A DNA stretch of 64,000 bases from Pedobacter steynii (GTDB lineage Bacteria > Bacteroidota > Bacteroidia > Sphingobacteriales > Sphingobacteriaceae): positions 5,084,001-5,148,000 of the forward strand of contig NZ_CP017141.1 in the NCBI RefSeq assembly GCF_001721645.1. The letters run 5' to 3'. The first letter of the stretch is position 1. Every line of letters starts with the position of its first letter. The position numbers and the translations under genes were made by a program. This document shows positions 38,001-59,180 of the stretch, in pieces. Under the pieces are notes generated by a model. That model did no database searches, was not told where the DNA came from, and was given only the letters and a program-made list of their open reading frames with translations.

Positions 38001-38247
38001 ATACAGAAATACCTTCTGGCTAAACAACGCTTCCTTCCTGCGATTAAAAAATGTGGAATTGGCTTATAACCTGAAAGCAGATTTTCTGTCGAAGATCAAC
38101 ATCTCAGGAGTCCGCTTATTTGCAAGTGCATTCAACCTGTTCACCATCACCAAAGTAAAAGATTATGACCCGGAAGGCAACAGCGAAAGCGGTCAGTTTT
38201 ACCCTCAGCAAAGGATCATCAACTTAGGTGCAAACGTTAAATTTTAA
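35071..38247 (+). CDS. SusC-like TonB-dependent outer-membrane transporter (PUL2)
   Basis: 1058 aa SusC-family receptor. N-terminal export signal (cleavage probably near TQAS), carboxypeptidase-regulatory-like domain (about 45-125, VTGTVYDENGGALPGVSV), TonB-box region ELIVVGYGTQKKE, plug (about 140-250, with IRGQATTGSNSVLVVVDGIPG and NGVILVTTKRG) and a barrel ending LGANVKF. It works with the SusD 11 bp downstream. It follows HTCS2 and precedes GH30 and GH35, so beta-galactan or arabinogalactan oligosaccharides are the probable cargo. Confidence 0.96.
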   Translation: MRKAIQNVYTPFWLMTKRVFVVTAINALLLSAQSTQASERLTVNIRQNVVTGTVYDENGGALPGVSVIVKGTTTAAITNGQGKYSIKVPADNAVLVFSYVGYTNLELPVAGKTVLDAKLSPDSRSLNELIVVGYGTQKKETVTGSISQIKGADLVKSPQPNLSNSLAGRFSGVVINNRGGEPGYDGSNITIRGQATTGSNSVLVVVDGIPGQIGGLERLDPNDIESVSVLKDASAAIYGNRAANGVILVTTKRGKTGKPTISYSFNQGFSSPTRLPKLADAATYAQLMNEINFDSSPSGGMNQSYSEEQIQKFRDGSDPLLFPNTDWASTVLKDVSTQNQHNLAVSGGTDDVKYYVSLGTINQDGLYKNGVTNYKQYNFRSNIDANVSKRLKVGLSLAGREENRKFPITGAGDLFRSIYRAKPIVGAYYPNGMPTRGIEGANPAVLVTDIGGMSKSPTQVLNAILKGSYQIPGVEGLSADGFFSVDKSNVFTKTFNKPYLLYEYQAASDTYKSDIYGGNNKKATLKEAQQREYLLTSNVKLNFARRFGRHDINAFVGFEQSRNNIEYFDAERFNYLSTQLPELSQGGTAATDFLNSGYSSNYTRRSIISRIAYSYDDKYLLEGQLRRDGSSIFAKGNQWGTFPSVSAGWRINKETWFSDNVTFFDELKLRASYGSLGNDNVKAFQFYDNYILVGNGFVAQAPGATPTIQPGVGLSKLANPDITWEVSKKLDIGINATFLKNFTFEAIYFKQQRSDILAARNASLPGSSGIVNPYNDKSANYNPLVPSENIGKVNSEGFEGTLGYAHRGAEFNWGVSGNFTYAKSKIVFIDEASGTLSYQRETGGPLNSYLLYNSIGMFRTQADLDNYPHVPGAKVGDLMFQDFNGDGVLNADDMTRQKYGNIPQITYGFNLNASYKNFDLSVLFAGQAQVSQYVLPESGSIGNFYSSWADNRFSASNPNGSFPKVTERASNAISGGGYRNTFWLNNASFLRLKNVELAYNLKADFLSKINISGVRLFASAFNLFTITKVKDYDPEGNSESGQFYPQQRIINLGANVKF

Positions 38248-38258
38248 ATCTTGTCAAA

Positions 38259-39956: not shown

Positions 39957-39985
39957 GCTCCATACACACACAAACACACCTAAAC

Positions 39986-40015
39986 TCCGGAAAGCATCGC
40001 TTTCCGGATGTTTTT
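39986..40015 (+). terminator. Rho-independent terminator after susD2
   Basis: Perfect 10-bp stem TCCGGAAAGC (39986-39995) / GCTTTCCGGA (39999-40008), 3-nt loop, followed by TG and five T. Confidence 0.85.
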
Positions 40016-40032
40016 ATTCCAATTCAGTAGAT

Positions 40033-41559: not shown

Positions 41560-41568
41560 CCCATCAAA

Positions 41569-43460: not shown

Positions 43461-45089
43461 CTACCAGAACACGGTGTAAAGGGCGGTCAGTATACCCATA
43501 ATAAGAAGGGATCCGATGACAAAGCCGGTGTTGACTTTAAACATATTGGGGTCCACTTCAATGGCCCGCTGATCAGCCTCTTTTTCCGGTTTCCACAAAC
43601 TAATGATCACCATGATGACCACAATTAAAACAAAATCAATGGTCATCCTGTCCAGGAAAGGATAATCCGGAAATGCTCCGTTTGTCCATAGCGGCAGGAA
43701 TTTCAATACGGTTGAAATTGGAATGGTCAATAAGGCTCCGGTCATCGCTGCTGCAGCTGTGGTCCGTTTCCAGTAAAAACCAAGTAAGAAAATGGCCAGT
43801 ACACCAGGAGAAATAAAACCGACATATTCCTGTATGAACTGATAAGCCTGATCCAGTGATTTTAATGCGGGGGTAACCAGGGCGGCAACAGTGATGGAAA
43901 TGACAACTGCCCAGCGGCCAACACTGACCATCTTTTTATCAGCTGCGTCCTTTTCAAAGTATTTCTTATAAATATCCAAAGAGAAAATGGTCGATATGCT
44001 GTTTGCCTTACCTGCCAGTGAAGCAACAATGGCTGCGGTAAGCGCGGCAAATGCAATGCCTTTTACACCTGGCGGCAGTAGATTCATTAAGGTTGGATAC
44101 GCATGATCTGGTTTTACTACGCCTGCAACAGACATTTCCGCATGAAACAAGCCTTTATGGTGCAACACATACATCACAATTCCCGGAAGTACGGCAATTA
44201 CCGGAATCAGCAATTTTAAAAATGCAGCAAATAAAATCCCCTTACGTGCGGTAACCAGATCGGCGCCTAAAGCACGCTGCACAATGTACTGATTGCAACC
44301 CCAATAGGCGAGGTTGTTGATGAGCATACCTCCAATCAATACAGAGAGGCCTGGAAGTTCTTTATAGTATTTGTGCGAGGAATCAAATATCATATGAAAA
44401 TGTTCAGGTGCTTCCTTCCTTAAAACAGAAAGCCCCTTGAAAATATCCTGACCAAATCCATATTCCTGAGCAAGCAGGGAAAGTGCAAGATAAGTGGTGA
44501 TTAAACCGCCAATAATCAACACGACCACCTGGATAACATCCGTATAACCGATCACCTTCATTCCTCCCAGGGTAACCACCATTGAAAAAACACTTAAACC
44601 AAAAATACACCATTCAAAACTCAGGGTAGAGATGGAGGAAATGGCCAGTGCACCGAGATAAATAATGGAGGTCAGGTTCACAAATACATAAACCAGTAAC
44701 CAGAATACGGCCATTACGGTGCTGACTTTATCATTGTACCGCTTCGATAAAAACTGCGGCATGGTAAAAATCTTATTTTTCAGATAAACGGGAATGATAA
44801 AAACCGCCACAATAATTAAGGTGGCTGCTGCCATCCATTCGTAAGAGGCAATGGCCAGTCCCAATGCAAAACCGGAACCCGACATCCCGATAAAATGTTC
44901 TGCCGAAATGTTTGATGCGATTAAAGAGGCCCCGATTGCCCACCAGGTTAAGGAACCTTCCGCAAGAAAGAAATCCCTGGAGCTGAGGTTGCTGGATTTT
45001 TTCTTATGATAAATGTAATAGCCATAGGCAGATACGGCGATCAGGTAAACAAAAAAAACAATGTAGTCTGAGGTTTGTAATTGGTTCAT
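43461..45089 (-). CDS. Sodium/solute symporter (SSS family), possible myo-inositol or uronate importer
   Basis: 542 aa SSS-family symporter with about 14 membrane segments and the motif WWAIGASLIASNISAEHFIG. It is clearly a paralogue of the symporter at 580-2265; the N-terminal third is nearly colinear. It lies 96 bp downstream of myo-inositol oxygenase on the same strand, with a long inverted repeat between them. Context suggests it imports myo-inositol, the oxygenase substrate, but an arabinose or galactose role cannot be excluded. Confidence 0.9.
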   Translation of the reverse strand: MNQLQTSDYIVFFVYLIAVSAYGYYIYHKKKSSNLSSRDFFLAEGSLTWWAIGASLIASNISAEHFIGMSGSGFALGLAIASYEWMAAATLIIVAVFIIPVYLKNKIFTMPQFLSKRYNDKVSTVMAVFWLLVYVFVNLTSIIYLGALAISSISTLSFEWCIFGLSVFSMVVTLGGMKVIGYTDVIQVVVLIIGGLITTYLALSLLAQEYGFGQDIFKGLSVLRKEAPEHFHMIFDSSHKYYKELPGLSVLIGGMLINNLAYWGCNQYIVQRALGADLVTARKGILFAAFLKLLIPVIAVLPGIVMYVLHHKGLFHAEMSVAGVVKPDHAYPTLMNLLPPGVKGIAFAALTAAIVASLAGKANSISTIFSLDIYKKYFEKDAADKKMVSVGRWAVVISITVAALVTPALKSLDQAYQFIQEYVGFISPGVLAIFLLGFYWKRTTAAAAMTGALLTIPISTVLKFLPLWTNGAFPDYPFLDRMTIDFVLIVVIMVIISLWKPEKEADQRAIEVDPNMFKVNTGFVIGSLLIMGILTALYTVFW

Positions 45090-45125
45090 AGTTTGATCTT
45101 CTCGGTATTTATCACAGTTTTCACA

Positions 45126-45161
45126 GCTATTGTACGAAATGTGGTGCTTTCGTACAATAGC
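45126..45161. repeat. Perfect 14-bp inverted repeat between MIOX and SSS2
   Basis: Arms GCTATTGTACGAAA (45126-45139) and TTTCGTACAATAGC (45148-45161), 8-nt centre. It lies 37 bp upstream of the SSS2 ATG. No T-run follows on either strand, so it may be an operator or an mRNA processing/stability hairpin rather than a terminator. A weak hairpin with a T-run on the minus strand (45171-45187) overlaps the MIOX stop. Confidence 0.7.
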
Positions 45162-45185
45162 AGGGCTTTAAAAAAGCTCAGGAGC

Positions 45186-46076
45186 TTAGAACTTCAGCGT
45201 AGCCGGCAGGTATTTGCTTACCAATGCCTCATAATAGGGTTTCAGTTCCTCCCAGCTTTTTTGGTTGGGGTTCTTGGAGTATAGGTCGTATGGATTAAAC
45301 AGGTTGACCCATTTAAATAGTTCATGGTCTTTTTCATTCATCAGATGATCATATGCATGTTCCCGGTGCTGGGCATAAAAGGAGTGGTAACGCAGCATAT
45401 ACAAGCCTGGTTCAGGAATATAATCTTTCATCATGTGGTATACATATTCATCATGGCCCCATGACATATGTACCTGATCGAGACCACAGTTTTCGGTATA
45501 GATTCCCAGTTTGCTCTGATAGATTTCATTGTTGAAATCCGGATTCTGACTGAAAAATTCAGGAAAAACAATCTTATCAGAATAGGCGCATCCTACCGGA
45601 AAAGTATCTCCGACTACCGCCCATTGTGGTTCGCCGAATAAGCAAAGTACCTTTCCCATATCGTGGATCAGGCCTACCAATACCATCCAATCCGGATGTC
45701 CGTCATTTCTGATGGCTTCTGAAGTCTGGAGCAGGTGCTGCATCTGATCTAAGTCTGTATCGGGATCAGAGTCGTCTACCAGCTCATTTAAAAAATCAAA
45801 AGCTTTCCAGATCGGCATCTCTTTTTTATCAAACTTCAGGTAATCTGCCTTTTTCTGCATCACGAAATCATAGGTCTGGTAAGTATGGTTTAGCCGGTAA
45901 AATTCCTTTACCCCATCTTTTACGGTTTCCTCATAATTTCTGAATTCTTCTTCTTTTTTTTCTTTATTGATGGCAGCAGGATCCGGATACCGGTTCAATA
46001 CATCGTGTTCCCATTCATCTAAATTATCTAAAGGGCCATCGTGTGCTGCTGCGGAATTGATTTGGTTAGTATTCAT
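45186..46076 (-). CDS. Myo-inositol oxygenase
   Basis: 296 aa cytoplasmic HD-domain di-iron enzyme converting myo-inositol and O2 to D-glucuronate. All six iron ligands of the family can be placed: His114 (QHLLQTSE), His138 and Asp139 (LIHDMGK), His208 (SWGHDEY), His231 (RYHSFYA) and Asp264 (FNPYDLY). The GEPQWAVVGDTFPVGC stretch is strongly conserved with animal and plant enzymes. It is divergent from the LacI regulator and upstream of an SSS symporter. The glucuronate made would need uronate catabolism, which is not in the window. Confidence 0.95.
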   Translation of the reverse strand: MNTNQINSAAAHDGPLDNLDEWEHDVLNRYPDPAAINKEKKEEEFRNYEETVKDGVKEFYRLNHTYQTYDFVMQKKADYLKFDKKEMPIWKAFDFLNELVDDSDPDTDLDQMQHLLQTSEAIRNDGHPDWMVLVGLIHDMGKVLCLFGEPQWAVVGDTFPVGCAYSDKIVFPEFFSQNPDFNNEIYQSKLGIYTENCGLDQVHMSWGHDEYVYHMMKDYIPEPGLYMLRYHSFYAQHREHAYDHLMNEKDHELFKWVNLFNPYDLYSKNPNQKSWEELKPYYEALVSKYLPATLKF

Positions 46077-46171
46077 AGGATGGTAGATTAATCTTAATTG
46101 TTAATTCAATCTGTTTATTATATTAAAGTTGTAGTTTTGAAAGGGTAGATGCTCATCTTCTAACCGGATTT

Positions 46172-46195
46172 ATTTACTTAACCGATTAAGTAAAT
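46172..46195. promoter_or_regulatory. LacI-type operator between MIOX and lacI-family gene
   Basis: Inverted repeat ATTTACTTAA-CCGA-TTAAGTAAAT; 22 of 24 positions are symmetric about the central CG, as expected for LacI-family sites. It lies 40 bp before the regulator ATG, in the divergent region with MIOX, so it could control both. Confidence 0.7.
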
Positions 46196-46234
46196 GATCA
46201 AGCTAACCAGATTAACCAAACCACCTTTAGTAAA

Positions 46235-47251
46235 ATGGGTAACATTACCATTAAAATGTTGGCTAAGGAGCTGAACTTGTCAACTGCCGCAGTGTCCAAA
46301 GCTTTAAATGATAGCCACGAAATCAGCGAGAGCACAAAACAGCGTGTCCTGGAATTGGCTGCTGCTTTAAATTATGTACCGCATCCTTATGCAGGAAGCC
46401 TGCGTGAAAAGAAAAGCAATACCATTGCTGTGGTGATCCCGGAAGTGGCAGATAGTTTCTTTTCTCTGGCCCTGAATGGCATTGAATCGGTGGCCATAGA
46501 AAAAGGGTATCATGCTTTGATTTATCTGACTCATGAGCGATTTGAGCGGGAGAAGACGATTTTAAAGGACCTGGAATCCGGAAGGGTAGACGGGGTCATC
46601 ATGTCTCTTACCATGAAAACTAATACTTTTGGGCACCTGAAAACCTTGAATAAGATCGTTCCGATGGTGTTTTTTGATCGGGTATGTGAAGAAATTGATA
46701 CGGCAAAGATCACCACAAATGATGAGGAATGTGGTTATCAGGCCACACAGCACCTGATAGACCAGGACTGTAAAAAGATCGCCATCCTATCCATCTCAGA
46801 TTCCCTGTCCATCAGCTCTAAAAGAATGCAGGGTTATCAGCGGGCCTTGCTGGACAGTGGGAGGGCATATGATGCATCCTGCGTCATCGATTATAGCGAA
46901 GATCCCGCTGAAAATCTTGAACAGCTCAGAAAGGCGTTTAAGGCTGCCGGCAGACCGGATGGTATAGTAGCCACGGTAAGTAAAATGACAACGGATATTT
47001 ATCTGGTTGCTATGGAACTGGGCCTTCGGATTCCGGAGGATCTAAAAGTGGTTTCTTTCTCCAACGATTCTACTGTTGCCATACTTAACCCGTCCTTAAC
47101 CACCATTACACAGCCCGCGTTTGAAATGGGGGAATTAGCGGCCAATATCCTGTTTAGAGCATTGAAAAAAAAGGACCTGATATGGACTGAAGAAAGCCGG
47201 GTGCTTCCCTCTCAGCTTTTCATCAGGAATTCCAGCACCGGTTCCCTTTAA
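46235..47251 (+). CDS. LacI-family transcriptional regulator
   Basis: 338 aa repressor. The N-terminal helix-turn-helix is typical (ITIKMLAKELNLSTAAVSKALND, residues 4-27), followed by the hinge helix (LNYVPHPYAGSLREKKSNTIAVV). A periplasmic-binding-like sensor domain covers about residues 60-335. It is divergent from myo-inositol oxygenase with a well-formed operator between them, so it is the probable regulator of MIOX and SSS2. GH127 lies downstream at 131 bp and may also be a target. The ligand is unknown. Confidence 0.93.
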   Translation: MGNITIKMLAKELNLSTAAVSKALNDSHEISESTKQRVLELAAALNYVPHPYAGSLREKKSNTIAVVIPEVADSFFSLALNGIESVAIEKGYHALIYLTHERFEREKTILKDLESGRVDGVIMSLTMKTNTFGHLKTLNKIVPMVFFDRVCEEIDTAKITTNDEECGYQATQHLIDQDCKKIAILSISDSLSISSKRMQGYQRALLDSGRAYDASCVIDYSEDPAENLEQLRKAFKAAGRPDGIVATVSKMTTDIYLVAMELGLRIPEDLKVVSFSNDSTVAILNPSLTTITQPAFEMGELAANILFRALKKKDLIWTEESRVLPSQLFIRNSSTGSL

Positions 47252-47382: not shown

Positions 47383-49803
47383 ATGAAACCGACCACAATG
47401 AAATCATTATTCCTGATACTGGCTGCCGGAACAGCGGTGCTTCCTGCAAGGGCACAGCAGAAGAAAGACTACCCGATACAGCCGGTTGCATTTACCCATG
47501 TTCATGTAAATGATCAGTTCTGGGCACCAAAAATGCAGGTGAATGCCACAATTACCATTCCCTATACTTTGCAGAAGTGTGAGGAAAACGGCCGGATAAA
47601 CAATTTCCTGATGGCCGCCCATGAAATCGAAGGGCGCCCAACTGAAGGAGGCACACTTTCTCAGTTTACTTTTGATGATACAGATGTCTATAAAGTGATC
47701 GAAGGAGCTTCCTATGCGATGCAGGTGAAGAAAGATCCGGCAATGGAACATTATATCGATTCCTTGATTACCATTATCGGTAAAGCGCAGGAGAAGGACG
47801 GGTACTTATTTACATTCCGTACTGCAAACGTAAAAAAACCTCATGAATGGATCGGAAATAAAAGATGGGAAAAGGAAGAAGACCTGAGCCATGAATTGTA
47901 CAATGCCGGTCATTTATATGAATCGGCAGCAGCTTATTATGAGGCGACAGGTAAAAAGACATTACTGAATATTGCCCTCAAAAATGCGGACCTGCTGGTT
48001 AAAGTTTTCGGCCCGGGGAAACTACAGATCTATCCCGGCCACCAGATTGTAGAAATTGGCCTGGTTCGTCTTTATCGCATTACCGGTAACCAGAAATACC
48101 TGGACCTGGCCAAGTTTTTCCTGGATGTAAGGGGACCGAAGGGCGATCCTTATAATCAGGCAAACGAAAAGGTAATCGACCAACAAACGGCTGTAGGACA
48201 TGCCGTACGCGCTACTTATATGTATACCGGAATGGCTGATGTGGCTGCATTGACCGGCGACCAGAAATACCTGAATGCCATCGATAAAATATGGGAAGAT
48301 GTGGTTTATAAAAAATTATACATCACGGGCGGTATAGGTGCTACCGGTAATGGAGAAGCTTTCGGAGCGGCTTATCAGTTGCCAAACATGTCTGCCTATG
48401 CAGAAACCTGTGCGGCAATAGCAAACATTTACTGGAACAGCAGGATGTTCCAGTTGCATGGTGATGCGAAATATATGGACGTCCTGGAAAGAACACTGTA
48501 TAATGGTTTACTTTCGGGGGTATCTTTAAGCGGCGACCGTTTCTTTTACCCGAACCCACTGGCTTCTATGCACCAGCACCAACGCAGTGCCTGGTTTGCC
48601 TGCGCCTGCTGCATTTCTAACATGACGCGGTTTTTACCTTCTGTACCGGGCTATGTGTATGCGCAGAACAACAATGATTTATATGTGAATCTGTTTATGA
48701 GCAATACCGCTGATGTCAATCTTAAAACCACTAAGGTGAAGCTGACTCAGGCCACTGGTTACCCATGGAACGGAAAGGTAGAGCTGAGCGTTGACCCCGC
48801 AAAATCATCCACTTTTGCCCTTCATATCCGCATCCCTGGCTGGGCCGCACAGTCGCCGGTACCTGGTGATCTGTACCGCTACATGGACCCGAATAAGGCT
48901 ACTTTCAAATTGCTGTTAAACGGTGCACCTGCAACCTATAAAATGATTAAAGGTTATGCGGTAGTAGAACGCAAATGGAAAAAAGGTGATCAGCTGAGCC
49001 TGGACCTGCCGATGGAAGTAGAAAAGGTCGTAGCCAATGCGAATGTCAAAGATGATGTGGGCAGGTTTGCTTTTCAGCGCGGGCCAATTGTATACTGCCT
49101 GGAGGGACCGGACAATAAAGACGGATTGGTTCAAAACATTATGGTCGACAAAAATGCTCCTGTAACGACCACATTTAACAAAGCCAAACTAAACGAAATT
49201 CAGGAGATCTTAGTAGAAGGAACCGGTACCAAAAGACAGCTGAACTCGGATGAACTGATTGAGGTAAAACAAAAAGTAACCGCCATACCATATTATGCCT
49301 GGGCTAACCGCGGACCAAGTGATATGACGGTTTGGATTCCTTATGAAGCTTCCTCGGCGCGGCCACAACCTGCACCAACCATTGCATCGCTAAGCAAGGT
49401 GAGCGCTTCTTCAGATAATAAACGCCTGCTGGAAGCCATCAGAGACCAATACGAACCGGTAGATTCAAAAGACACCAATTATCCCTACCTCCATTGGTGG
49501 CCAAAAAAGAACAGTAAAGAATATGTTCAATATGATTTTGCCGAAGCTCAGACCGTTTCAGAGTCAGAAGTCTATTGGTATGACGATCAACCCTGGGGTG
49601 GCTGCCGCATCCCGCTTTCTTATCAGATCCTGTATCTGAAGGAGGGGAAATGGATACCGGTAGAGATTGCCAGCGATTCCGGAATTGCTAAAGACCGGTT
49701 TAATGTGATTAAATTCAAACCTGTACATACCACAGCCCTGAAACTGGAGGTCCAGCTGCCAGTAGAACAATCTTCGGGTATTCAGGAATGGAAAGTGAAA
49801 TAA
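47383..49803 (+). CDS. GH127 beta-L-arabinofuranosidase
   Basis: 806 aa secreted enzyme (signal peptide ends near ARAQQ; a second ATG at 47398 is possible). The DUF1680 (alpha/alpha)6 barrel covers residues about 30-640. The catalytic acid/base region is SAYAETCAAIAN (Glu341), and the zinc/nucleophile cysteine cluster is ACACCISN (Cys407, 409, 410), as in HypBA1-type GH127. A C-terminal discoidin-like beta-sandwich (about 665-806, EYVQYDFAEAQTVSESEVYW) probably binds carbohydrate. The family removes beta-L-arabinofuranose, found on hydroxyproline of extensins and on rhamnogalacturonan II. A bidirectional terminator follows. Confidence 0.93.
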   Translation: MKPTTMKSLFLILAAGTAVLPARAQQKKDYPIQPVAFTHVHVNDQFWAPKMQVNATITIPYTLQKCEENGRINNFLMAAHEIEGRPTEGGTLSQFTFDDTDVYKVIEGASYAMQVKKDPAMEHYIDSLITIIGKAQEKDGYLFTFRTANVKKPHEWIGNKRWEKEEDLSHELYNAGHLYESAAAYYEATGKKTLLNIALKNADLLVKVFGPGKLQIYPGHQIVEIGLVRLYRITGNQKYLDLAKFFLDVRGPKGDPYNQANEKVIDQQTAVGHAVRATYMYTGMADVAALTGDQKYLNAIDKIWEDVVYKKLYITGGIGATGNGEAFGAAYQLPNMSAYAETCAAIANIYWNSRMFQLHGDAKYMDVLERTLYNGLLSGVSLSGDRFFYPNPLASMHQHQRSAWFACACCISNMTRFLPSVPGYVYAQNNNDLYVNLFMSNTADVNLKTTKVKLTQATGYPWNGKVELSVDPAKSSTFALHIRIPGWAAQSPVPGDLYRYMDPNKATFKLLLNGAPATYKMIKGYAVVERKWKKGDQLSLDLPMEVEKVVANANVKDDVGRFAFQRGPIVYCLEGPDNKDGLVQNIMVDKNAPVTTTFNKAKLNEIQEILVEGTGTKRQLNSDELIEVKQKVTAIPYYAWANRGPSDMTVWIPYEASSARPQPAPTIASLSKVSASSDNKRLLEAIRDQYEPVDSKDTNYPYLHWWPKKNSKEYVQYDFAEAQTVSESEVYWYDDQPWGGCRIPLSYQILYLKEGKWIPVEIASDSGIAKDRFNVIKFKPVHTTALKLEVQLPVEQSSGIQEWKVK

Positions 49804-49845
49804 TGAAAAAGGATGGCTGGCATTTATGCCGGCCATCCTTTTTCA
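49804..49845. terminator. Bidirectional terminator between GH127 and the WGR gene
   Basis: Arms 49804-49821 and 49828-49845 pair over 18 positions (one G-T) around a 6-nt loop, with A5/T5 at the stem ends. It overlaps the last codons of the minus-strand WGR gene. Confidence 0.85.
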
Positions 49846-50525
49846 TTACTATAAGTTTCATAAGAAAGTCTGGTATACAGATTTTCGTCTTCGGTGTTCA
49901 TCTTTTTATTGTAGGCCTCGTCTGCCAGATATAACAAGGCTTCAAAGTCCATTTCTTCCGGCATCTCGGTCGGATTACTGAGCACATGTTCGTAATATTC
50001 TTTTCCATTGGCAACCACACAGCATCGAACGTAAAGGAAATAATCAACGGAAAAATGTTTGCCGTCTTTATAAGAGTCCGGACCGATATTGGAAGCATAA
50101 GCAAGACCATCCAGCTGGTATAATTTTTCCGAAAGAATTTCAGCGAATTGCTGGATGTCGGTTACTTCCATGGCAACCAGTTTTTTCAATGCAGGTTTTA
50201 ATACCGCATCATCATCACCGGTCTTTTTCCAGTTGAAAGCAGCGATAACCTCCCAGAACACATCTTCATCCATCGGGCGGTAGCTCGCTGCGGTTTTTTC
50301 GGGAATGGCCTGACCCGCTGCCAATTCTTTGTAACCGCTGCGTTGTTTGTCTAGGATCAGCTTTTCTACTTCTTTGGTACAGCTCGCTTCATCAACAAAT
50401 TCCTTTGTGTTTTCCCTTGCTTTCGCGCCCACTTTGCCAAAGGTGACGGTATAACTTGTGCCCTTGATTTCAACTGTCCAAAGTTTATTGGATTCCCCCT
50501 CCTGATTTAAAAACGTTCTTTTCAT
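49824..50525 (-). CDS. WGR domain and DUF4240 protein
   Basis: 233 aa protein. Residues 1-70 look like a WGR domain (KLWTVEIKGTSYTVTFGKVGAKARENTKEF), known from PARPs and MolR-like proteins. Residues about 90-225 look like DUF4240 (DEDVFWEVIAAFNW ... YDG-like KHFSVDYFLYVRCCVVANGKEYYEHVL). No signal peptide; cytoplasmic. It has no obvious link to carbohydrate use and sits alone between two beta-L-arabinofuranosidases. Function unknown. Confidence 0.85.
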   Translation of the reverse strand: MKRTFLNQEGESNKLWTVEIKGTSYTVTFGKVGAKARENTKEFVDEASCTKEVEKLILDKQRSGYKELAAGQAIPEKTAASYRPMDEDVFWEVIAAFNWKKTGDDDAVLKPALKKLVAMEVTDIQQFAEILSEKLYQLDGLAYASNIGPDSYKDGKHFSVDYFLYVRCCVVANGKEYYEHVLSNPTEMPEEMDFEALLYLADEAYNKKMNTEDENLYTRLSYETYSNEKGWPA

Positions 50526-50631
50526 TGGTAACTGGCTTTATCCTTTGAGTAAATTCATGCTCCTAAAATAAGATTAATTACCATTTAAAAATACTGGAAG
50601 ATGCACTTCCCGAACGGATCTTTTTCCGTAC

Positions 50632-50703
50632 TCACCATTCGTTTATGTTTTCTTCGGGTAAGATCAGAATACTGCCATCAATTAAAACATATTGGAAGTG
50701 CAT
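50632..50703 (-). other. Short ORF or gene remnant between GH146 and WGR genes
   Basis: A 23-codon ORF on the minus strand starts MHFQYVLIDGSIL, ends INEW, and meets a stop. Shifting frame by one base lets reading continue for about 19 codons (EYGKRSVREVHLPVFLNGN). It may be a decayed gene, but it is too short to be sure. The flanks also carry the inverted 10-mer ATGCACTTCC/GGAAGTGCAT (50601-50610 and 50694-50703). Confidence 0.2.
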
Positions 50704-50724
50704 GGGTTCCAGGTGCTTCTTAAG

Positions 50725-53082
50725 CTATCCCTTAACTGCCCGTATCACATAAATGGGCCCTGCGCTGTTTTTTGCTTTGGGAACCAGTTTAACTGTTACT
50801 TTACTTTTGCCATTGGTCAATGCAGCAGGGATGGGATAGGAGATCTCATAAAAACGACTTTCTTTATACTTGTTGAGGTCTTCGGTGGCAATCAATGTTC
50901 CATCTACAAATACTTCAAAGTTCCTTCCCCGGTTGTCCATTCCCCAATAGGAGGCAATAAGGGTATTGGAGAGTTTTGGATCTGTTTTCATATCGAACTG
51001 AAGAAATCCTTCTTCTCCGGCCATACGCCATTTCTTTCCATGTTCCTCACCGCTCGTTGCTTTTTCGGATAGGAAGTTATGATCGCGCTCCGGCTGCATT
51101 TCCCCAAACCTGAAAAGATCGGTGGTCCGGTCGTCCAGTTCTTTTTGGAGTCGCTTTTTTTCCTCATACAGCTTTTGCTGTACCAGCCATTGTTCAGGCG
51201 TGAAAACATCCCAGTAGACACTATAATGTTGATTTTCTGTTTGATTGAAGGGGATGAGTGTCACATCATGAGGTTTTGCAATGCCTGTGGTTTTGAAGCT
51301 GAGCTGCTTTTGATCCACCATTTTTAACCATTCCTTAGGATCCTGCTCGGCACTTACAAATACGGGTACGCCCTGCACCGGATCTGGTTCCGTTAATCCG
51401 AGGTCGCCGGCCAATAATACCGGGCCATAAAATACAGCTCTGCGGTTGGGATTGTCGGGCATAGCCTCTGTATACAGTTTTTCAGGTGTGGTATAGACTA
51501 CCTGATCCTTGTTTTTCCAGGTTCTGCGGATCACATAGTAGCCATTTTCTTCCGTTACATTTGCTGGTTTTCCATTAACCAGGATTGTAGCATCAGCAGA
51601 CCATTTCGGTTTTCTGATCCGTATGGCAAAGTTAGCAGCCTTGGTTGTGCTGATCCGCAGGCTGGTCTTATCGCCATAAGGCAGGGCAGATTCCTGGGTA
51701 ACCCGTAAACCTTTTTCCTTCCAGTTCAATACCGAAGGGATAAACAGGTTCACATATAAACTGCCATCTGCACCTTTAAAGTAAATGCTTTCATTGTACT
51801 TGACATGGTTTTCCATCCCTGTTCCCACACAGCAGGTAAAGCTGTTGAACTCATCGCTATACTCTTTTTTGCCGCCCATTCGCAAGGGTACAAAATAACA
51901 CATCATACCGGTATGGTGGTTTTGAGAAGCCAGGATGTGGTTGTATAATCCCTTTTCATAATAATCAAAAAATGTAGAAGAGGGATCAAGTGCAAACAGA
52001 TGCTGGGTCAGCTTCAGCATGTTATAGGTATTGCAGGTTTCTGTAGTGTTCTCGGTCAGTTTATCGTTCAGCTTATCGGCCTCACTCAGGTATTCATAAT
52101 TGCTGTTCCCGCCCGTTACATAAGAATGGTGATTGACCACGGTTTTCCAAAAAAAATCTGCAATGGCCAGGTCATTTTTATCGCCCGTAAGCTGGTACCT
52201 GCGGGCACTGGCAATGATTTTAGGGATTTGGGTATTGGAATGTTTGCCGGGCAAAATGTCTTTCTGCTCTGCCAGCGGATCCAGAATGCGCTTGTCGTAG
52301 AACTTATAGGAAAGATCAAGGTAGGTTTTGTTGCCGGTAATTGCGTAGAGGTTCACCAGGGTTTCGGCCATTCCTCCATACTCACAAATGAGCATTTTCT
52401 GATTTTGTTCCTCTGTCAGGTGGTTGATGGTAGCACTGGTCCATTTGGCCAGTTCTTTTGAAACGGTTAAGGCTTTTGAATTGCCAGCATATAAATAGGC
52501 ATCCAATAAACCGGCCATGATTTTATGTACGGTATACCAGGGCGCCCATCCGCCATTCAGGTCAAAACCACGGGTTTCAATGTCGCCTTTTGCTACTCTT
52601 GCCCAAATGTTATCTTCGTTTGGAATGGCGCCGATGTATCCGGTTTTCCTGGCCTGCTGACAAACAACAAGTTCATCTACAATATAATTGATTCTTTTTA
52701 ACAGCTCCGGATCTTTTGTCGCAGCATACTGAAAGGAAATGGCTGATAAATAATGTCCAAGGCTATGCCCCGCAAGGCCATCCGATTCCCATCCTCCGTA
52801 TTTTTTCGCTTTCTCCGGTAAACCGGCATTGCTTCTGAATCCGGCCAGTAAACGATCTGATTCTATCTTAAGCAGATAAGCCACATCTGCATTCATCGCA
52901 GTTTTAAAAGGGCTTTCCAGCAGCGATACTTCCGAGAGCTGGAAAGCATAAGCTTTGATGGGAATGGTATTCTTAACGGTCATCCTGGTATCGTTTAATC
53001 TCGGTACGTAGGATTGGGCATTACCTGATAAAGCATAAAGCAATGCTGCCGTTAGTAGGTTAGTGCAAAGGGTTCTGTTCAT
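50725..53082 (-). CDS. GH146/GH127-superfamily beta-L-arabinofuranosidase
   Basis: 785 aa secreted DUF1680 enzyme; signal peptide ends near SGNAQ. Motifs include GWESDGLAGHSLGHYLSA, Glu348 in TETCNTYNMLK and the Cys417-Cys418 pair in FTCCVGTGMENH, the metal/nucleophile cluster of this superfamily. C-terminal beta domains follow (about 540-785). The arrangement resembles the GH146 beta-L-arabinofuranosidase of Bacteroides arabinan PULs more than the GH127 at 47383; family assignment is from memory. It is transcribed leftwards; the 260-bp region upstream, shared with the AraC gene, holds a candidate AraR operator. Confidence 0.88.
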   Translation of the reverse strand: MNRTLCTNLLTAALLYALSGNAQSYVPRLNDTRMTVKNTIPIKAYAFQLSEVSLLESPFKTAMNADVAYLLKIESDRLLAGFRSNAGLPEKAKKYGGWESDGLAGHSLGHYLSAISFQYAATKDPELLKRINYIVDELVVCQQARKTGYIGAIPNEDNIWARVAKGDIETRGFDLNGGWAPWYTVHKIMAGLLDAYLYAGNSKALTVSKELAKWTSATINHLTEEQNQKMLICEYGGMAETLVNLYAITGNKTYLDLSYKFYDKRILDPLAEQKDILPGKHSNTQIPKIIASARRYQLTGDKNDLAIADFFWKTVVNHHSYVTGGNSNYEYLSEADKLNDKLTENTTETCNTYNMLKLTQHLFALDPSSTFFDYYEKGLYNHILASQNHHTGMMCYFVPLRMGGKKEYSDEFNSFTCCVGTGMENHVKYNESIYFKGADGSLYVNLFIPSVLNWKEKGLRVTQESALPYGDKTSLRISTTKAANFAIRIRKPKWSADATILVNGKPANVTEENGYYVIRRTWKNKDQVVYTTPEKLYTEAMPDNPNRRAVFYGPVLLAGDLGLTEPDPVQGVPVFVSAEQDPKEWLKMVDQKQLSFKTTGIAKPHDVTLIPFNQTENQHYSVYWDVFTPEQWLVQQKLYEEKKRLQKELDDRTTDLFRFGEMQPERDHNFLSEKATSGEEHGKKWRMAGEEGFLQFDMKTDPKLSNTLIASYWGMDNRGRNFEVFVDGTLIATEDLNKYKESRFYEISYPIPAALTNGKSKVTVKLVPKAKNSAGPIYVIRAVKG

Positions 53083-53212
53083 ATTTTTCGCTTTGGTGTC
53101 GATCTTAAAGGAATAAAATTAGGCAATTCAACAGCGGCCGATATTGCATTAATTTGCCGATACCACTAGCATTTTAGCCATTGTGCAAATTAGCTTATTT
53201 TATCGCGAATAA

Positions 53213-53233
53213 TAAGCGTTAACTTGACGTATA
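53213..53233. promoter_or_regulatory. Candidate AraR operator between GH146 and AraC genes
   Basis: TAAGCGT-TAACTTG-ACGTATA; 5 of 7 arm positions are symmetric, with the spacer ending in TTG. It lies in the divergent 260-bp region, so it could control both directions. The rest of that region shows no other clear signal. Confidence 0.5.
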
Positions 53234-53342
53234 TTAGCATGTGTTGACCGTATTTTAACCTGTTTGCTATTGAATTCTTGACTGGTAGTTAATATCTGTA
53301 CATTAATGCTCCACAACCTAACCACTAACCAAAAGACCGACC

Positions 53343-54245
53343 ATGAAAGTACTTCCTTTTACTTTGCTTGTACCGGATGATAAAAGTGTAATATCCGAAC
53401 AGATTGAGTTACCTTATTTCTATCAGTATCTTCACCGTCATGAAGAATGGCAGATCACCTGGGTAGAGCGGGGAGAGGGCACACTGATCGCCGGGAATAA
53501 CATGCATGCATTTCGTTCCGGCGATCTGTTCTTAATCGGAGCCAACCTGCCTCATTTATTCAAAAGTAACCCCGAGTATTTTGTGGGTGATGAAAGTAAA
53601 TGCATCAGGGCAAGCTCTGTTTATTTCAACCCTAATGGCAGATTATCAGGTTTGTTCAACATGCCTGAGCTGAAAACTGCAAGCGCTTTTCTGAAGAACA
53701 ACAAGCACGGATTTAAAATTCCGGAGGCTTATGCTTCGTCATTAGCCGGGCGGATGCAAGAGCTGCATGAAGCCACAGGATCAGCAGTTCTGTTTGCTTT
53801 TTTACGACTACTGGAAGTCCTGCAAAGCGTGGAGGAAGCTGGAGAACCACTTTGCCCTGATTTTTATTCTTCCAACCTTTCGGAGCATGAAGGGATGAGG
53901 CTCAGCAACATCATCAATTTCATTATGCGCAATTACAACAACCGGATCGACCTGGAAGATGTGGCCAACGCAGCTTACATGACGCCTCAGGCTTTCTGTC
54001 GCTATTTTAAAAAGCATACCGGGCATACCTTCATCTCTTTTCTGAATGAAGTACGGATCAATGATGCCTGTAAAAGCCTGGTTTCGGATGAAAAGCCCGA
54101 CTGTATTTCGGGCGTGGCTTATAAAGCCGGTTTCAATAGCATCGCGAACTTCAACCGGGTGTTTAAGAATTTAATCGGACGCTCTCCAAGGGCCTATATA
54201 GATGAATACCATAACGTAAGTCGAATCAACAGCATTGCAGGATGA
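53343..54245 (+). CDS. AraC-family transcriptional regulator with cupin domain
   Basis: 300 aa regulator. The N-terminal cupin (about residues 15-85, HRHEEWQITWVERGEGTLIAG) probably binds a small sugar. The C-terminal double helix-turn-helix (about 190-290, LEDVANAAYMTPQAFCRYFKKHTG and SGVAYKAGFNSIANFNRVFKNLIGRSPRAYI) is typical AraC/XylS. It overlaps the DUF885 gene by ATGA, so it is translationally coupled to it and probably regulates its own operon. Ligand unknown. Confidence 0.93.
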   Translation: MKVLPFTLLVPDDKSVISEQIELPYFYQYLHRHEEWQITWVERGEGTLIAGNNMHAFRSGDLFLIGANLPHLFKSNPEYFVGDESKCIRASSVYFNPNGRLSGLFNMPELKTASAFLKNNKHGFKIPEAYASSLAGRMQELHEATGSAVLFAFLRLLEVLQSVEEAGEPLCPDFYSSNLSEHEGMRLSNIINFIMRNYNNRIDLEDVANAAYMTPQAFCRYFKKHTGHTFISFLNEVRINDACKSLVSDEKPDCISGVAYKAGFNSIANFNRVFKNLIGRSPRAYIDEYHNVSRINSIAG

Positions 54246-56017
54246 AAAAACCATACCAACTACTATTTATTATCATGTGCCTATTGCCATCAGCTATTTT
54301 TTCACAGGAAAAAGCAGTACCCAGTCTCTATGAGCAAACCAGCGAAATGGGGACGACCATCATTACTTATCAAAGGGACCTGAGGGCCATCCAGGATTTT
54401 TATTCGCCTTATGTCATCGAAGGGACTTATCCCGAAGTTGCCCGGGTGTATTATTCGCCGGAACAGCGGAGCCGTTTGCTGGCCATCCAGAAGGAGTACC
54501 TGAAAGGAATGGAACAAATGAATTTTGATGCCTTCAGTATATATGGAAAGGTGGATTACCTCCTCTTAAAAAAGGAAATCAAAAAAGAAATCGCTCAGTT
54601 GGAAAAGACCGAAAGCAATGAAAAAGCGATCCTTAAATACATTCCTTTTGCAACAGGGATTTATGCGATTGAAAAGGAAAGACGCAGAGGAAAAGCCATG
54701 GATTGGCCGGCCGTAGCGGCAAAGCTGAACGCCATCGCTAAGGAAGTCGGCACTTTTAACGCCACATCGATAAATAAAGCGGCATTAAACAAGGCAAACA
54801 TCAGAAATATCAATGAGGTGATCTATGGTTTGAAAACAAGACTACGTGGGGTATACGAATTTTATAAGGGCTATGATCCTTTATTCGACTGGTGGGTGTC
54901 GAAACCTTATGGAAACCTGGTCCAGGCTTTAGATAATTATGCTTCGCTGTTTGCTGAAAAAGGAACGGAAGCACCTGCTCAGAAAGACAGCAATTACGGA
55001 ATAAAAGGAAACCCAATCGGACAGGCGGAGTTGTTGACGCAATTACAGGCCGAAATGATTCCTTATACTCCTGAGGAACTGGTTAAAATCGCGGAGAAGG
55101 AATTTGCATTTTGCGATCAGGAGTTGTTAAAAGCCTCGGCAGAAATGGGTTTCGGGAAAGATTGGAAGAAAGCCCAGGAGAAAGTTAAGGAAAGCTTTGT
55201 GGCACCAGGCAAACAACCTGAACTGATTGTGCAGTTACAGGACGATGCACTGGACTTTATCAAAAAGCAGGACCTGATGAACATTCCTGAGCTGGCAAAA
55301 GAAACCTGGGGCATGGTCATGATGTCGGCAGAAAGACAACTGGTCAATCCGTTTTTCACGGGAGGCCGGGAGATCAGTATTTCTTATCCGACAACAAGCA
55401 TGACGGAAGGGGATAAACTGATGAGTATGCGGGGCAATAACCCTTATTTTTCAAGAGGCACGGTACAGCATGAGCTGCTTCCAGGGCATCATCTGCAATA
55501 TTACATGAACAGTCGCTATAAGAATTACCGGGAACTTTTTACCACGCCATTTGGGATAGAAGGATGGACGCTGTACTGGGAGTTGCTGCTATACGATAAA
55601 GGTTTTGCCAAAAGCCCGGAAGAACGGATAGGGATGTTGTTCTGGAGGATGCACCGTTGTGCAAGGATCATTTTCTCTCTGAATTATCATTTGGGCAAAT
55701 GGACACCGGGGCAATGTGTGGACTTCCTGGTAGATCGTGTAGGGCATGAGCCCGCAAATGCAGAAGGAGAAGTCCGGAGGTCGTTCGAGGGTGGTTATAG
55801 TCCGCTGTATCAGGTGGCTTATATGATTGGAGGATTGCAACTGATGGCATTAAAACATGAACTGGTAGATGGGGGTAAAATGAGCTATAATGAGTTTCAT
55901 ACCCGGGTAATGAAGGAGAACCTGATTCCAATGGAAATGCTCCGGGCAACTTTAACAGGACAATCTTTAAAAAGGGATTTTACCTCTCAATGGAAATTTT
56001 ACAACTTCAATAAGTAA
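54242..56017 (+). CDS. DUF885 protein, putative zinc metallopeptidase
   Basis: 591 aa exported protein with a signal peptide (residues 1-21, ending IFSQE). It is a full-length DUF885 member with the zinc-like motif HELLPGHH (residues 410-417) followed by LQYYMNSRYKNYRELFTTPFGIEGWTLYWELL, the second conserved block with likely ligand Glu. DUF885 proteins are distant relatives of oligopeptidases/carboxypeptidases; direct biochemical data are limited. It starts inside the araC-family stop and is followed 29 bp later by an amino-acid permease, so the trio looks like a peptide or amino-acid uptake unit. Confidence 0.87.
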   Translation: MKKPYQLLFIIMCLLPSAIFSQEKAVPSLYEQTSEMGTTIITYQRDLRAIQDFYSPYVIEGTYPEVARVYYSPEQRSRLLAIQKEYLKGMEQMNFDAFSIYGKVDYLLLKKEIKKEIAQLEKTESNEKAILKYIPFATGIYAIEKERRRGKAMDWPAVAAKLNAIAKEVGTFNATSINKAALNKANIRNINEVIYGLKTRLRGVYEFYKGYDPLFDWWVSKPYGNLVQALDNYASLFAEKGTEAPAQKDSNYGIKGNPIGQAELLTQLQAEMIPYTPEELVKIAEKEFAFCDQELLKASAEMGFGKDWKKAQEKVKESFVAPGKQPELIVQLQDDALDFIKKQDLMNIPELAKETWGMVMMSAERQLVNPFFTGGREISISYPTTSMTEGDKLMSMRGNNPYFSRGTVQHELLPGHHLQYYMNSRYKNYRELFTTPFGIEGWTLYWELLLYDKGFAKSPEERIGMLFWRMHRCARIIFSLNYHLGKWTPGQCVDFLVDRVGHEPANAEGEVRRSFEGGYSPLYQVAYMIGGLQLMALKHELVDGGKMSYNEFHTRVMKENLIPMEMLRATLTGQSLKRDFTSQWKFYNFNK

Positions 56018-56046
56018 GCAGCAATCAGCTAACAAAGCAAAAATTC

Positions 56047-57462
56047 ATGAAAGAGGAACCAACAGAATTTAAGTCTTCACTCCGGTTAATCGATGCAACG
56101 ATGCTTGTTGCAGGGAGTATGATCGGATCGGGAATATTTATTGTCAGCGCGGATATCACCAGAAATGTAGGCAGCTCGGGATGGCTGCTGGTGGTCTGGC
56201 TGATTACCGGATTTATGACGCTGACTGCCGCTTTGAGTTATGGGGAACTCAGCTCGATGTACCCGAAAGCAGGGGGGCAGTATGTGTATTTAAAAGAGGC
56301 ATACAATCCACTGGTCAGTTTCCTGTACGGCTGGAGTTTTTTTACAGTCATCCAAACGGCAACGATCGCCGCGGTGGGAGTGGCCTTTGCCAAGTTTACG
56401 GCTTATCTGCTGCCTCAGTTTGGGGAAGACCGGATCGTGGCTGACCTTGGCTTTCTGCAGGTCTCTTCTGCACAGCTGCTGGCCATTGTGGTGATTGTGA
56501 TTTTAACCTATGTAAACAGCAGAGGGGTAAATACAGGCAAATCGATACAAACTTTCTTTACCCTGGCCAAGCTGCTGAGTCTTTTTGGCCTGATCGTATT
56601 CGGTTTGTTTTTCATGCAGAATGACATCTGGCAGCAGAACTGGAAAGATGCCTGGGAGCTGAAACCGCTGGGGGGGTCAACAGGCATAGGTTCATATACC
56701 ACCATGGCCGCTTTCGGTGCAATTGCGGCAGCCATGGTGGGCTCTATTTTTAGTAGCGACTCCTGGCATAATGTAACCTTTGTGGCGGGCGAAATCAGAA
56801 ACCCGAAGCGGAATGTAGGATTGAGCCTTGCCCTGGGCACAATCATGGTAATGGTCCTCTATATTTTAACCAATATCATGTATACAGGGGTACTGTCTCT
56901 TCATGACATCGGACATGCGGATAAAGACCGGGTCGCGGTTTCCGCTGCTCAGGTGATATTCGGGGCCTCGGGAACAGTAATCATCGCATTGATGATCATG
57001 GTCTCTACTTTTGGCTGCAATAACGGACTGATCATGGCGGGGGCAAGGGTGTACTACTCGATGGCGAAAGACGGTCTTTTCTTCAAAAAAGTAGGTACGC
57101 TGAACAAGAATGCGGTACCTGCTTTTGGGCTTTGGATCCAATGCCTGGTTGCTGCACTATGGTGCCTTAGTGGCAAATATGGGGACCTGCTGGATATGAT
57201 TTCTTTTGTGGTGGTGATGTTTTACATGCTGACAATAGGAGGGATTTTTATCCTCCGGAAAAAACGCCCTGATATAGAACGCCCTTATAAAGCATTCGGA
57301 TATCCTGTTTTGCCATTGATCTATATCATAATGGGCCTGGCATTTTGCCTGTTATTGATCATCTATAAACCTCGCTTCACCTGGCCAGGTCTGATCATCA
57401 CTTTGATCGGTATTCCGGTTTACTATGTGATCGGTAAACTTAAAAGTAACCAAAGCACTTAG
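56047..57462 (+). CDS. APC-family amino-acid permease
   Basis: 471 aa inner-membrane transporter with about 12 helices. The first helix carries the APC signature GSMIGSGIFIVSADI; the YGELSSMYPKAGGQYVYLKEAY and the FSSDSWHNVTFVAGEIRNPKRN segments are typical of the LAT/YbeC-like amino-acid exchangers. It is last of the AraC-DUF885-APC unit and likely imports amino acids released by the peptidase; the specific amino acid cannot be read. A hairpin follows. Confidence 0.93.
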   Translation: MKEEPTEFKSSLRLIDATMLVAGSMIGSGIFIVSADITRNVGSSGWLLVVWLITGFMTLTAALSYGELSSMYPKAGGQYVYLKEAYNPLVSFLYGWSFFTVIQTATIAAVGVAFAKFTAYLLPQFGEDRIVADLGFLQVSSAQLLAIVVIVILTYVNSRGVNTGKSIQTFFTLAKLLSLFGLIVFGLFFMQNDIWQQNWKDAWELKPLGGSTGIGSYTTMAAFGAIAAAMVGSIFSSDSWHNVTFVAGEIRNPKRNVGLSLALGTIMVMVLYILTNIMYTGVLSLHDIGHADKDRVAVSAAQVIFGASGTVIIALMIMVSTFGCNNGLIMAGARVYYSMAKDGLFFKKVGTLNKNAVPAFGLWIQCLVAALWCLSGKYGDLLDMISFVVVMFYMLTIGGIFILRKKRPDIERPYKAFGYPVLPLIYIIMGLAFCLLLIIYKPRFTWPGLIITLIGIPVYYVIGKLKSNQST

Positions 57463-57530: not shown

Positions 57531-57551
57531 TAATCGTCAAATTGACATTTA
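57531..57551. promoter_or_regulatory. Candidate AraR operator 1 upstream of second GH51
   Basis: TAATCGT-CAAATTG-ACATTTA; 5 of 7 symmetric. Its centre is 26 bp from that of the next site, so the two could bind cooperatively. Confidence 0.6.
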
Positions 57552-57584
57552 TTTATTAATCGTCTATTTGACGATTAATAAATA
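57550..57584. promoter_or_regulatory. Candidate AraR operator 2 upstream of second GH51
   Basis: Perfect inverted repeat with 14-bp arms (57550-57563 and 57571-57584) around a 7-bp spacer; core TAATCGT-CTATTTG-ACGATTA at 57557-57577. It is the strongest copy of the motif and overlaps the -33 box TTTG at 57567-57570. Confidence 0.75.
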
Positions 57585-57635: not shown

Positions 57636-59180
57636 ATGTTCAAAAAAAATCTATTTCATAAGCTGGGTCTTTCCCTGCTTATTCTGGGTAGTAGCCAGTC
57701 GCTGCTGGCACAGCAAACTACAGTAACCTTAGGGGCAGACCAGCCTGCAGGACAAATTAGTAAACACATTTACGGACACTTTGCCGAGCACCTTGGCCGC
57801 TGTATTTATGATGGATTTTACGTAGGGGAAAACTCGAAAATTCCAAATACTGCAGGGGTAAGAAATGACATTGTTGCCGCTTTAAAAAACCTCAGCATTC
57901 CAAACCTGAGGTGGCCCGGTGGCTGTTTCGCCGACAGGTACCATTGGAAAGACGGGATCGGACCTAAAGACCAGCGCCCATCAATTGTAAACACGATGTG
58001 GGGCGGGGTAACGGAAGACAATAGTTTTGGAACCCACGACTTTCTGAATATGTGTAAGCTGCTGGGCACGGAGCCTTACCTGGCTGGAAATACCGGAAGT
58101 GGTACTGTTCAGGAGCTGGCAGATTGGGTGCAGTATGTGAATTTTGAAGGCCGCAGTCCGATGTCTGACCTGCGCGTTAAAAACGGACAGGAAAAACCAT
58201 GGAACGTAAAGTTCTGGGGCGTAGGAAATGAAGCCTGGGGTTGTGGAGGAAGTATGACCCCGGAATATTATGTGGGCGAATACCGTAAGTATGCAACCTT
58301 TATGGAAGGACGCAACTTATATAAAATAGCCTCAGGTGCCAATGGTGATGATTATCATTGGACGGAGACTTTAATGAAAGGAATTCCGCTGAATCTGATG
58401 GACGGTATTGCTTTACACCATTACTCGGTCCCGAACTGGGATAAAAAAGGTCCTGCAACGGGATTTACCGAGCAGCAATATTTCGATACCATGAAAAGTG
58501 CCTTGCGTATGGAGGAGCTGATTACCAAACATACCGCCATCATGGATAAATACGATCCCAAAAAGAAAATCAGTCTTGTGGTTGACGAATGGGGCGGATG
58601 GTATGACGTGGAAAAAGGAATAAACCCGGGATTCTTATACCAGCAGAATACCATGCGTGATGCGATGATTGCAGGCACTACCTTAAACACTTTCAATAAC
58701 CATAGTGACCGTGTTAAAATAGCAAACCTGGCACAGTGTGTTAACGTTTTACAGGCCGTAATCCTGACCAGCGGAGAAAAAATGCTGCTTTCTCCAACTT
58801 ACCACGTAATGGAAATGTATAAAGTACATCAGGATGCAACGCTGATTCCGGTATCGGTTAAAACAGGGGATTACGTTTTTGGCAATGAAAAACTACCTTC
58901 AGTTTCTGTATCGGCATCAAAAGATGCTGCCGGACTAACACATATTTCTGTGGTCAACATCAATAAAAATAAAGCGGAAGAAATACAAATTGACATTACC
59001 GGAAAAACCTATAAATCTGTTTCGGGACGTATCCTGACCGCGGCAAAAGTCGATGACCACAATACATTTGAAAACCCGGAAGCCATTAAGCCGGCGGTTT
59101 ATAAAACGGCTGTGTTGAAAGATGGGAAACTGAACCTTAAACTTCCCGCATTTTCAGTAGTAGTTCTGGAATTGAAGTAA
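57636..59180 (+). CDS. GH51 alpha-L-arabinofuranosidase, compact form
   Basis: 514 aa secreted enzyme, usual length of compact GH51 arabinofuranosidases, with a signal peptide ending near LLAQQ. The barrel carries ISKHIYGHFAEHLGRCIYDG at the start, LRWPGGCFADRYHW, acid/base Glu199 in VGNEAWGCGG and nucleophile Glu318 in VDEWGGWYDV, then a C-terminal beta domain. It has its own promoter with two candidate AraR operators and a terminator hairpin at 59183-59245, so it is monocistronic and tightly arabinose-controlled. Confidence 0.95.
   Translation: MFKKNLFHKLGLSLLILGSSQSLLAQQTTVTLGADQPAGQISKHIYGHFAEHLGRCIYDGFYVGENSKIPNTAGVRNDIVAALKNLSIPNLRWPGGCFADRYHWKDGIGPKDQRPSIVNTMWGGVTEDNSFGTHDFLNMCKLLGTEPYLAGNTGSGTVQELADWVQYVNFEGRSPMSDLRVKNGQEKPWNVKFWGVGNEAWGCGGSMTPEYYVGEYRKYATFMEGRNLYKIASGANGDDYHWTETLMKGIPLNLMDGIALHHYSVPNWDKKGPATGFTEQQYFDTMKSALRMEELITKHTAIMDKYDPKKKISLVVDEWGGWYDVEKGINPGFLYQQNTMRDAMIAGTTLNTFNNHSDRVKIANLAQCVNVLQAVILTSGEKMLLSPTYHVMEMYKVHQDATLIPVSVKTGDYVFGNEKLPSVSVSASKDAAGLTHISVVNINKNKAEEIQIDITGKTYKSVSGRILTAAKVDDHNTFENPEAIKPAVYKTAVLKDGKLNLKLPAFSVVVLELK

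Follow-up and report, generated by a model that had tools for sequence, protein, structure and literature searches.

Bacterial systems known to act on extensin-type glycans recover the arabinose. In Bifidobacterium longum (HypBA1/HypBA2), GH127 acts on the beta-arabinofuranosides linked to hydroxyproline (Hyp) in extensin; the system takes sugar only, with a LacI-type regulator (BauR) and ABC import, and no Hyp catabolism or peptidase is described there (PMC5928203, PMC7263609). In Xanthomonas euvesicatoria (XeHypBA1/BA2/AA), a GH146-type enzyme acts on Hyp-bound arabinofuranose, GH121 and GH43 stand in place of GH127, and a nearby prolyl oligopeptidase led the authors to suggest protein cutting; however, that peptidase gene is broken and no Hyp pathway was reported at the locus (PMC6085000). 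The system considered here lies in a 64-kb stretch of DNA (G000:C1:5084001-5148000, from a Pedobacter genome of 6.58 Mb), hereafter called the window. In it, genes for GH127 and GH146 adjoin a trio encoding an AraC-family regulator, an exported DUF885 protein and an APC-family permease, and the Hyp core would be taken as well as the sugar.

Among known arrangements, the nearest parallel is the collagen utilisation cluster of the Colwellia metagenome-assembled genome BB5. There, the genes of the 4-Hyp epimerase pathway share one cluster with peptidases, a transporter, a TonB receptor and the means to degrade a Hyp-rich protein outside the cell. That cluster uses an M9 collagenase and PepQ (PMC7883544), whereas here there are beta-L-arabinofuranosidases, DUF885, SusCD in relatives, and control by AraC and a putative AraR. 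The 4-Hyp epimerase clusters contain the same families (epimerase, D-amino-acid oxidase (DAAO), DHDPS and aldehyde dehydrogenase (ALDH)) for the same four steps; their regulators and transporters differ from those found here, and the accessible part of that source notes no glycosidases (PMC4113996). In the Bacteroides AraR regulon an NrtR/Nudix-type AraR governs arabinose genes, with no Hyp genes as described (PMC4666351); the sequence of the AraR-like operator reported below was derived locally. No description of a coupling of GH127/146 with Hyp catabolism in Bacteroidota was found in open-licence papers, which is not proof of novelty.

The AraC-DUF885-APC trio is probably the peptide-cutting and import arm of a Hyp regulon, serving the use of plant Hyp-O-arabinosides together with the adjacent GH127 and GH146. 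The steps of catalysis and transport are all predicted, as is Hyp as the ligand of AraC. GH146 and GH127 would strip beta-L-arabinofuranose off Hyp, the exported DUF885 protein, as an M3/M32-like zinc oligopeptidase, would trim Hyp-rich peptides in the periplasm, and the APC permease would import Hyp or very small Hyp peptides. A distant operon would then convert trans-4-Hyp to 2-oxoglutarate via 4-Hyp epimerase, D-Hyp oxidase, pyrroline-hydroxycarboxylate deaminase and semialdehyde dehydrogenase, and two AraC paralogues would recognise the same tandem operator. The first-pass annotation had proposed that arabinosidases and a peptidase-permease pair serve the protein part of Hyp-rich glycoproteins; this idea is supported by linkage to Hyp catabolism, based on gene neighbourhood, phylogenetic profile, a common operator and complete loci in other families. 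The Hyp core is a plant nitrogen and carbon pool whose microbial fate is little described in searchable papers.

The gene identities, linkage, co-occurrence and common operator were established by computation. Neighbourhoods were collected for 80 DUF885 relatives from GTDB genomes, and the flanking proteins were clustered. At about 40 loci the trio stands beside genes for a DapA-type deaminase, ALDH, 4-Hyp epimerase and DAO, together with M24, S9 and M1 peptidases; locus L045, for example, contains M24, M1, DapA-family, ALDH, Pro_racemase-family, DAO, AraC, DUF885, APC and S9 genes. Pfam models matched by the cluster representatives were DHDPS, Aldedh, DAO, Peptidase_M24, DPPIV_N/Peptidase_S9 and Peptidase_M1, while the racemase-family protein was identified by NCBIfam as 4-hydroxyproline epimerase (607 bits, cut-off 376). 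The DHDPS, ALDH, epimerase and DAAO families make up the known trans-4-Hyp pathway (PMC4113996). The Pedobacter genome has a Hyp operon of its own (L121, C1:968730-974530), with deaminase, ALDH, epimerase, DAO and AraC genes. Its epimerase scored 584 bits against the equivalog cut-off of 376, and DAAO, the DHDPS-family deaminase and ALDH share the epimerase's operon (L121 7742-12531). In the AraC tree the window protein groups with the AraCs of sister species, and that of L121 is on a separate branch. Two features recur in the neighbourhoods: in Dyadobacter loci (e.g. L089 11665-13233) an M61 glycyl aminopeptidase family protein sometimes replaces APC after DUF885, and a DUF5695 protein of about 915 amino acids is found beside Hyp clusters (L074 3619-6363; L067, L103, L153, L154).

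Among 151 Sphingobacteriaceae genomes, DUF885 was present in 42, the epimerase in 52 and both in 40 (Fisher p 2e-23), and within Pedobacter the association was 9/9 vs 3/11 (p = 0.0014); these p-values treat genomes as independent, which phylogenetically they are not, and the number of genera and families is therefore the safer measure. The two genomes with DUF885 but no epimerase (G110 and G130) carry only a 47-49% paralogue, and that of G110 (L155) lies in a beta-oxidation neighbourhood. Physical proximity, taken as 10 kb or less, was found for DUF885 and the epimerase in 19 of the 42 genomes (0.21 expected), for the epimerase and GH127/146 in 15 of 52, from 4 genera (0.66 expected), and for DUF885 and GH127/146 in 9 of 42 (0.77 expected). 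A high density of such glycoside hydrolases as the cause of this adjacency was rejected, there being only about 3 GH127/146 genes per genome (range about 1-9).

Complete loci, in which GH127/146, DUF885 and Hyp catabolism stand together, were found in three Bacteroidota families. L151 (G136) holds ALDH, APC, DUF885, AraC, GH127, GH146, SusC, SusD, deaminase, epimerase and DAO genes in 20 kb. In the genus of the window, L149 and L150 (G120) together contain GH127, APC, DUF885, S9, SusC-type genes, GH146, M24, M1, deaminase, ALDH, epimerase, DAO and AraC. A scan of 345 Bacteroidia genomes for neighbouring epimerase and GH127/146 genes gave two further cases outside Sphingobacteriaceae, L152 and L153, which were picked solely by that proximity and read afterwards; each holds DUF885. 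L152 comprises an AraR homologue (68% to the window AraR), AraC, the four catabolic genes, S9, GH146, DUF885, GH127 and SusD, and L153 comprises DUF885, GH146 with LamG, S9, APC, the four catabolic genes, AraC and SusD. In the DUF885 tree the copies of L149, L152 and L153 are on deep branches of their own, so that the coupling extends beyond close copies of the window DUF885. Three more loci (L142, L144, L147) have GH127-(GH27)-DapA-ALDH-epimerase-DAO on the same strand, with a GH27-like alpha-galactosidase in two of the three, and a GH43 with LamG (c17) is found again and again, in 10 trio loci. Extensin carries galactose on Ser. Its Hyp carries Ara1-4, the terminal residue of Ara4 being alpha-1,3 (PMC6085000). 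GH127/146 with GH43 and GH27 would fit extensin glycans. These loci tie GH127/GH146 to Hyp catabolism across several families and suggest that such a system is widespread among the soil and plant-associated genera of Bacteroidota.

The candidate AraR site of the first-pass annotation, upstream of araC, proved real and beyond chance, yet it is only half of the regulatory region. The pattern CGTYNANTTRACG, built from the araB, GH43/GH51 and GH51 sites, occurs at 7 places in 6.58 Mb, of which 4 are in the window (upstream of araB, GH43/GH51, this unit and GH51); since the three other window sites went into the pattern, only the site at 53217-53229 counts as a test. Of 50 relatives, 9 retain the palindrome ahead of araC (0.05 expected), and its arms vary symmetrically among relatives (CGTTAACTTGACG, CGTCATTTTAACG). 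GH146 starts 135 bp from it on the other side and may share this control. An operator for GH146 only was rejected, as L035 retains the site ahead of its araC with no GH146 adjacent. The palindrome is absent upstream of the Hyp-operon araC, which suggests that the trio, in contrast to the Hyp operon, responds to arabinose too.

A tandem direct repeat precedes both araC genes, with the sequence TTGACGTATATTAGCATGTG-TTGACCGTATTTTAACC in the window and TCGACATATATTAACAGGTA-TTGACCATATTTTAAC in L121. In the whole genome only these two sites match the pattern ATATTANCN9CNNNATNNTAAC without a mismatch; one mismatch allowed nine more, to be taken as noise since the reversed control gave five. Because the pattern was made from these and the relatives' promoters, the independent points are its uniqueness, its recurrence before araC in 27 of the 50 relatives (a loosened pattern; 0.005 expected), and its occurrence in L146, which was not used for making it. 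In L121 the operator lies between DAO and araC and not before the first catabolic gene, where a single similar half-site in the opposite orientation was identified.

The distal half-site of the predicted operator of the regulator, named HypR here, begins with the right arm of the AraR palindrome (TTGACG, 53224-53229). Tentatively, and with rather more doubt than confidence, a coincidence promoter can be proposed from this overlap, at which AraR and HypR would compete: AraR would have to leave, in response to arabinose, before the Hyp activator could bind, and by such AND logic the trio would be made only with both arabinose and Hyp. If true, the two compounds together would be read as the signature of Hyp-O-arabinosides, and the two-input promoter is testable. 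Not all relatives have the palindrome, and it would therefore be an innovation restricted to some Pedobacter. In genome G013, a HypR-like operator (L154 7759-7787, minus strand) also precedes, by about 60-90 bp, a SusC gene that neighbours the Hyp operon, hinting that the outer-membrane importer belongs to the Hyp regulon there.

The closest named relatives are P. steynii and P. caeni, whose DUF885 proteins show 88% identity to that of the window. Residues H410, E411, G415 and H416 of the conserved HExxPGH motif of DUF885 were invariant in 25 sequences, from which an AlphaFold2 model was obtained (pLDDT 88, pTM 0.86). The best fold matches were three DUF885 crystal structures without assigned function (Z 29-33), followed by MATCAP (13.6), M32 carboxypeptidase (13.2), oligoendopeptidase F (13.0), Pz-peptidase A (12.8), neurolysin, Dcp and ACE; a Z of about 13 is near background for helical models, although zinc peptidases of a single fold group, of the M2/M3/M32 type, make up almost all of these matches. 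Based on these matches and on the placement of DUF885 in the Peptidase_MA clan (PMC12572635), the modelled protein is likely a periplasmic oligopeptidase with an M3/M32-like fold. A literature search found no function for the family. A likely role is offered here for one DUF885 subfamily. In some genomes (G028:C16, G078:C1, G037:C54) three DUF885 paralogues of this group lie in about 12 kb; a division of labour among them on peptides is possible.

The genes named in the first-pass annotation (GH127, GH146, AraC, exported DUF885, APC) and its AraR-like site were all found in place (Table 1).

Table 1. Features of the trio and its surroundings, with positions in the window
Feature	Position	Strand	Basis or remark
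GH127 (beta-L-arabinofuranosidase family)	47383-49803	+	Pfam PF07944, 383 bits; best solved structure 6ex6, 730 bits
WGR-DUF4240 gene	49824-50525	-	Between GH127 and GH146
GH146 (beta-L-arabinofuranosidase family) with C-terminal DUF6805	50725-53082	-	PF07944, 419 bits; PF20620
AraR-like palindrome CGTTAACTTGACG	53217-53229	.	Upstream of araC
Tandem HypR operator (predicted)	53224-53259	+	Core 53231-53259; distal half-site TTGACGTATATTAGC overlaps AraR palindrome
AraC-family regulator (HypR)	53343-54245	+	69% identity to AraC of own Hyp operon
DUF885, exported, putative zinc oligopeptidase	54242-56017	+	PF05960, 168 bits, cut-off 32.4; HELLPGHH at residue 410
APC permease (LAT-like), candidate Hyp / Hyp-peptide importer	56047-57462	+	AA_permease_2, 201 bits, cut-off 27
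GH51 alpha-L-arabinofuranosidase	57636-59180	+	Behind two AraR-like sites, 57535-57573

The Zn-Cys3-Glu residues are kept in both arabinosidases, at ETC 341-343 and CC at 409 in GH127 and at ETC 348-350 and CC at 417 in GH146. The best solved structure for GH146 was 5opj (BT0349) with 492 bits, compared with 52-70 bits to GH127 structures. The signal peptide of GH127 and the hydrophobic export signal of DUF885 were judged by eye. The trio is a tight operon, in which araC and DUF885 overlap by 4 bp and APC starts 29 bp past DUF885. In P. steynii, P. caeni and KBW06 a spacer of 134-142 bp separates araC from DUF885 and holds a second operator-like element; the overlap in the window species results from its absence (window 54200-54260 vs L033 9860-10000). 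No SusC/SusD pair was found between 47383 and 59180; the orthologue of the SusD adjacent to the unit in P. caeni sits at C1:5250656.

Several observations weigh against a trio devoted to Hyp-O-arabinosides, among them the dependence among genomes and the fold-match background noted above. The Hyp operon of this genome is 4.1 Mb away and not adjacent to the unit. The specificity of the APC permease is unreadable from sequence, no equivalog model having reached its cut-off. Characterised GH127/GH146 relatives differ in specificity and BT0349 was placed in a pectic arabinan/rhamnogalacturonan I locus (PMC10850190); with the window GH127 nearest to 6ex6 and GH146 nearest to BT0349, the pair is therefore not diagnostic of extensin. 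Moreover, many relatives have the Hyp cluster with no GH127/146 inside 10 kb, as do most trio loci, and in P. steynii and P. caeni GH127 directly follows GH30-GH35, so that it may belong to the neighbouring galactan/arabinogalactan protein (AGP) locus. These last two points would suit a general scavenging of Hyp peptides from any source, such as collagen or gelatin, with the arabinosidases forming an independent arabinan/arabinogalactan locus that is only incidentally near, and a Hyp cluster with M9 collagenase is indeed known in Colwellia (PMC7883544). Such scavenging is nevertheless unlikely in view of the frequency with which the epimerase lies near GH127/146 in genomes with so few such genes, the complete loci in three families and the same-strand arrangement of L142, L144 and L147. 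M9 collagenase had no match in 59 relatives, nor in control genomes.

Plant Hyp-O-arabinosides as the substrate leave room for a variant, a real alternative though not exclusive of the above, in which the target is AGP and not extensin: GH30, GH35, GH43 and GH127 would take the glycan and the trio the Hyp core. AGPs are Hyp-rich too and carry beta-arabinofuranose (PMC10850190), GH30 and GH35 are present in the neighbouring locus (35071-43416), and GH127 is beside GH35 in sister species. This variant is somewhat improbable, since L151 and L152 have GH127 and GH146 as their only recognised glycoside hydrolases, a set that covers short Hyp-arabinosides but falls short of what type II arabinogalactan requires, and the GH30 is without a close characterised structure. 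That the trio scavenges amino acids or dipeptides with no relation to Hyp or arabinose is most improbable. The DUF885 and APC families are broad, and the genome's own APC paralogues (62%) stand in other contexts, but the profile, neighbourhood and operator evidence all speak against it, and it is the distant DUF885 paralogue of L155, in a genome without epimerase, that is found in a beta-oxidation neighbourhood instead.

Among the neighbouring genes, GH51 is probably part of the arabinose regulon. The WGR-DUF4240 gene, omitted from the first-pass annotation, is also kept in P. steynii, P. caeni and KBW06. Between GH35 and GH127, an SSF symporter, a myo-inositol oxygenase (MIOX) and a LacI gene are inserted (43461-47251). 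This LacI (46235-47251) was rejected as regulator of GH127, as it accompanies MIOX and SSF, and sister species do not have it between GH35 and GH127. An HExxH lipoprotein of PUL1, earlier counted with the unit, does exist (29314-30552, HEMNH at residue 320); its membership was rejected, as it has no Pfam peptidase match and is 18 kb distant. It contains Fn3-like repeats and the sequence HEMNHTLGTGT, like a metzincin motif with the third ligand replaced. At 28467-29297 a protein of 276 amino acids with no Pfam match contains ESDIME, which resembles the GH16 catalytic motif.

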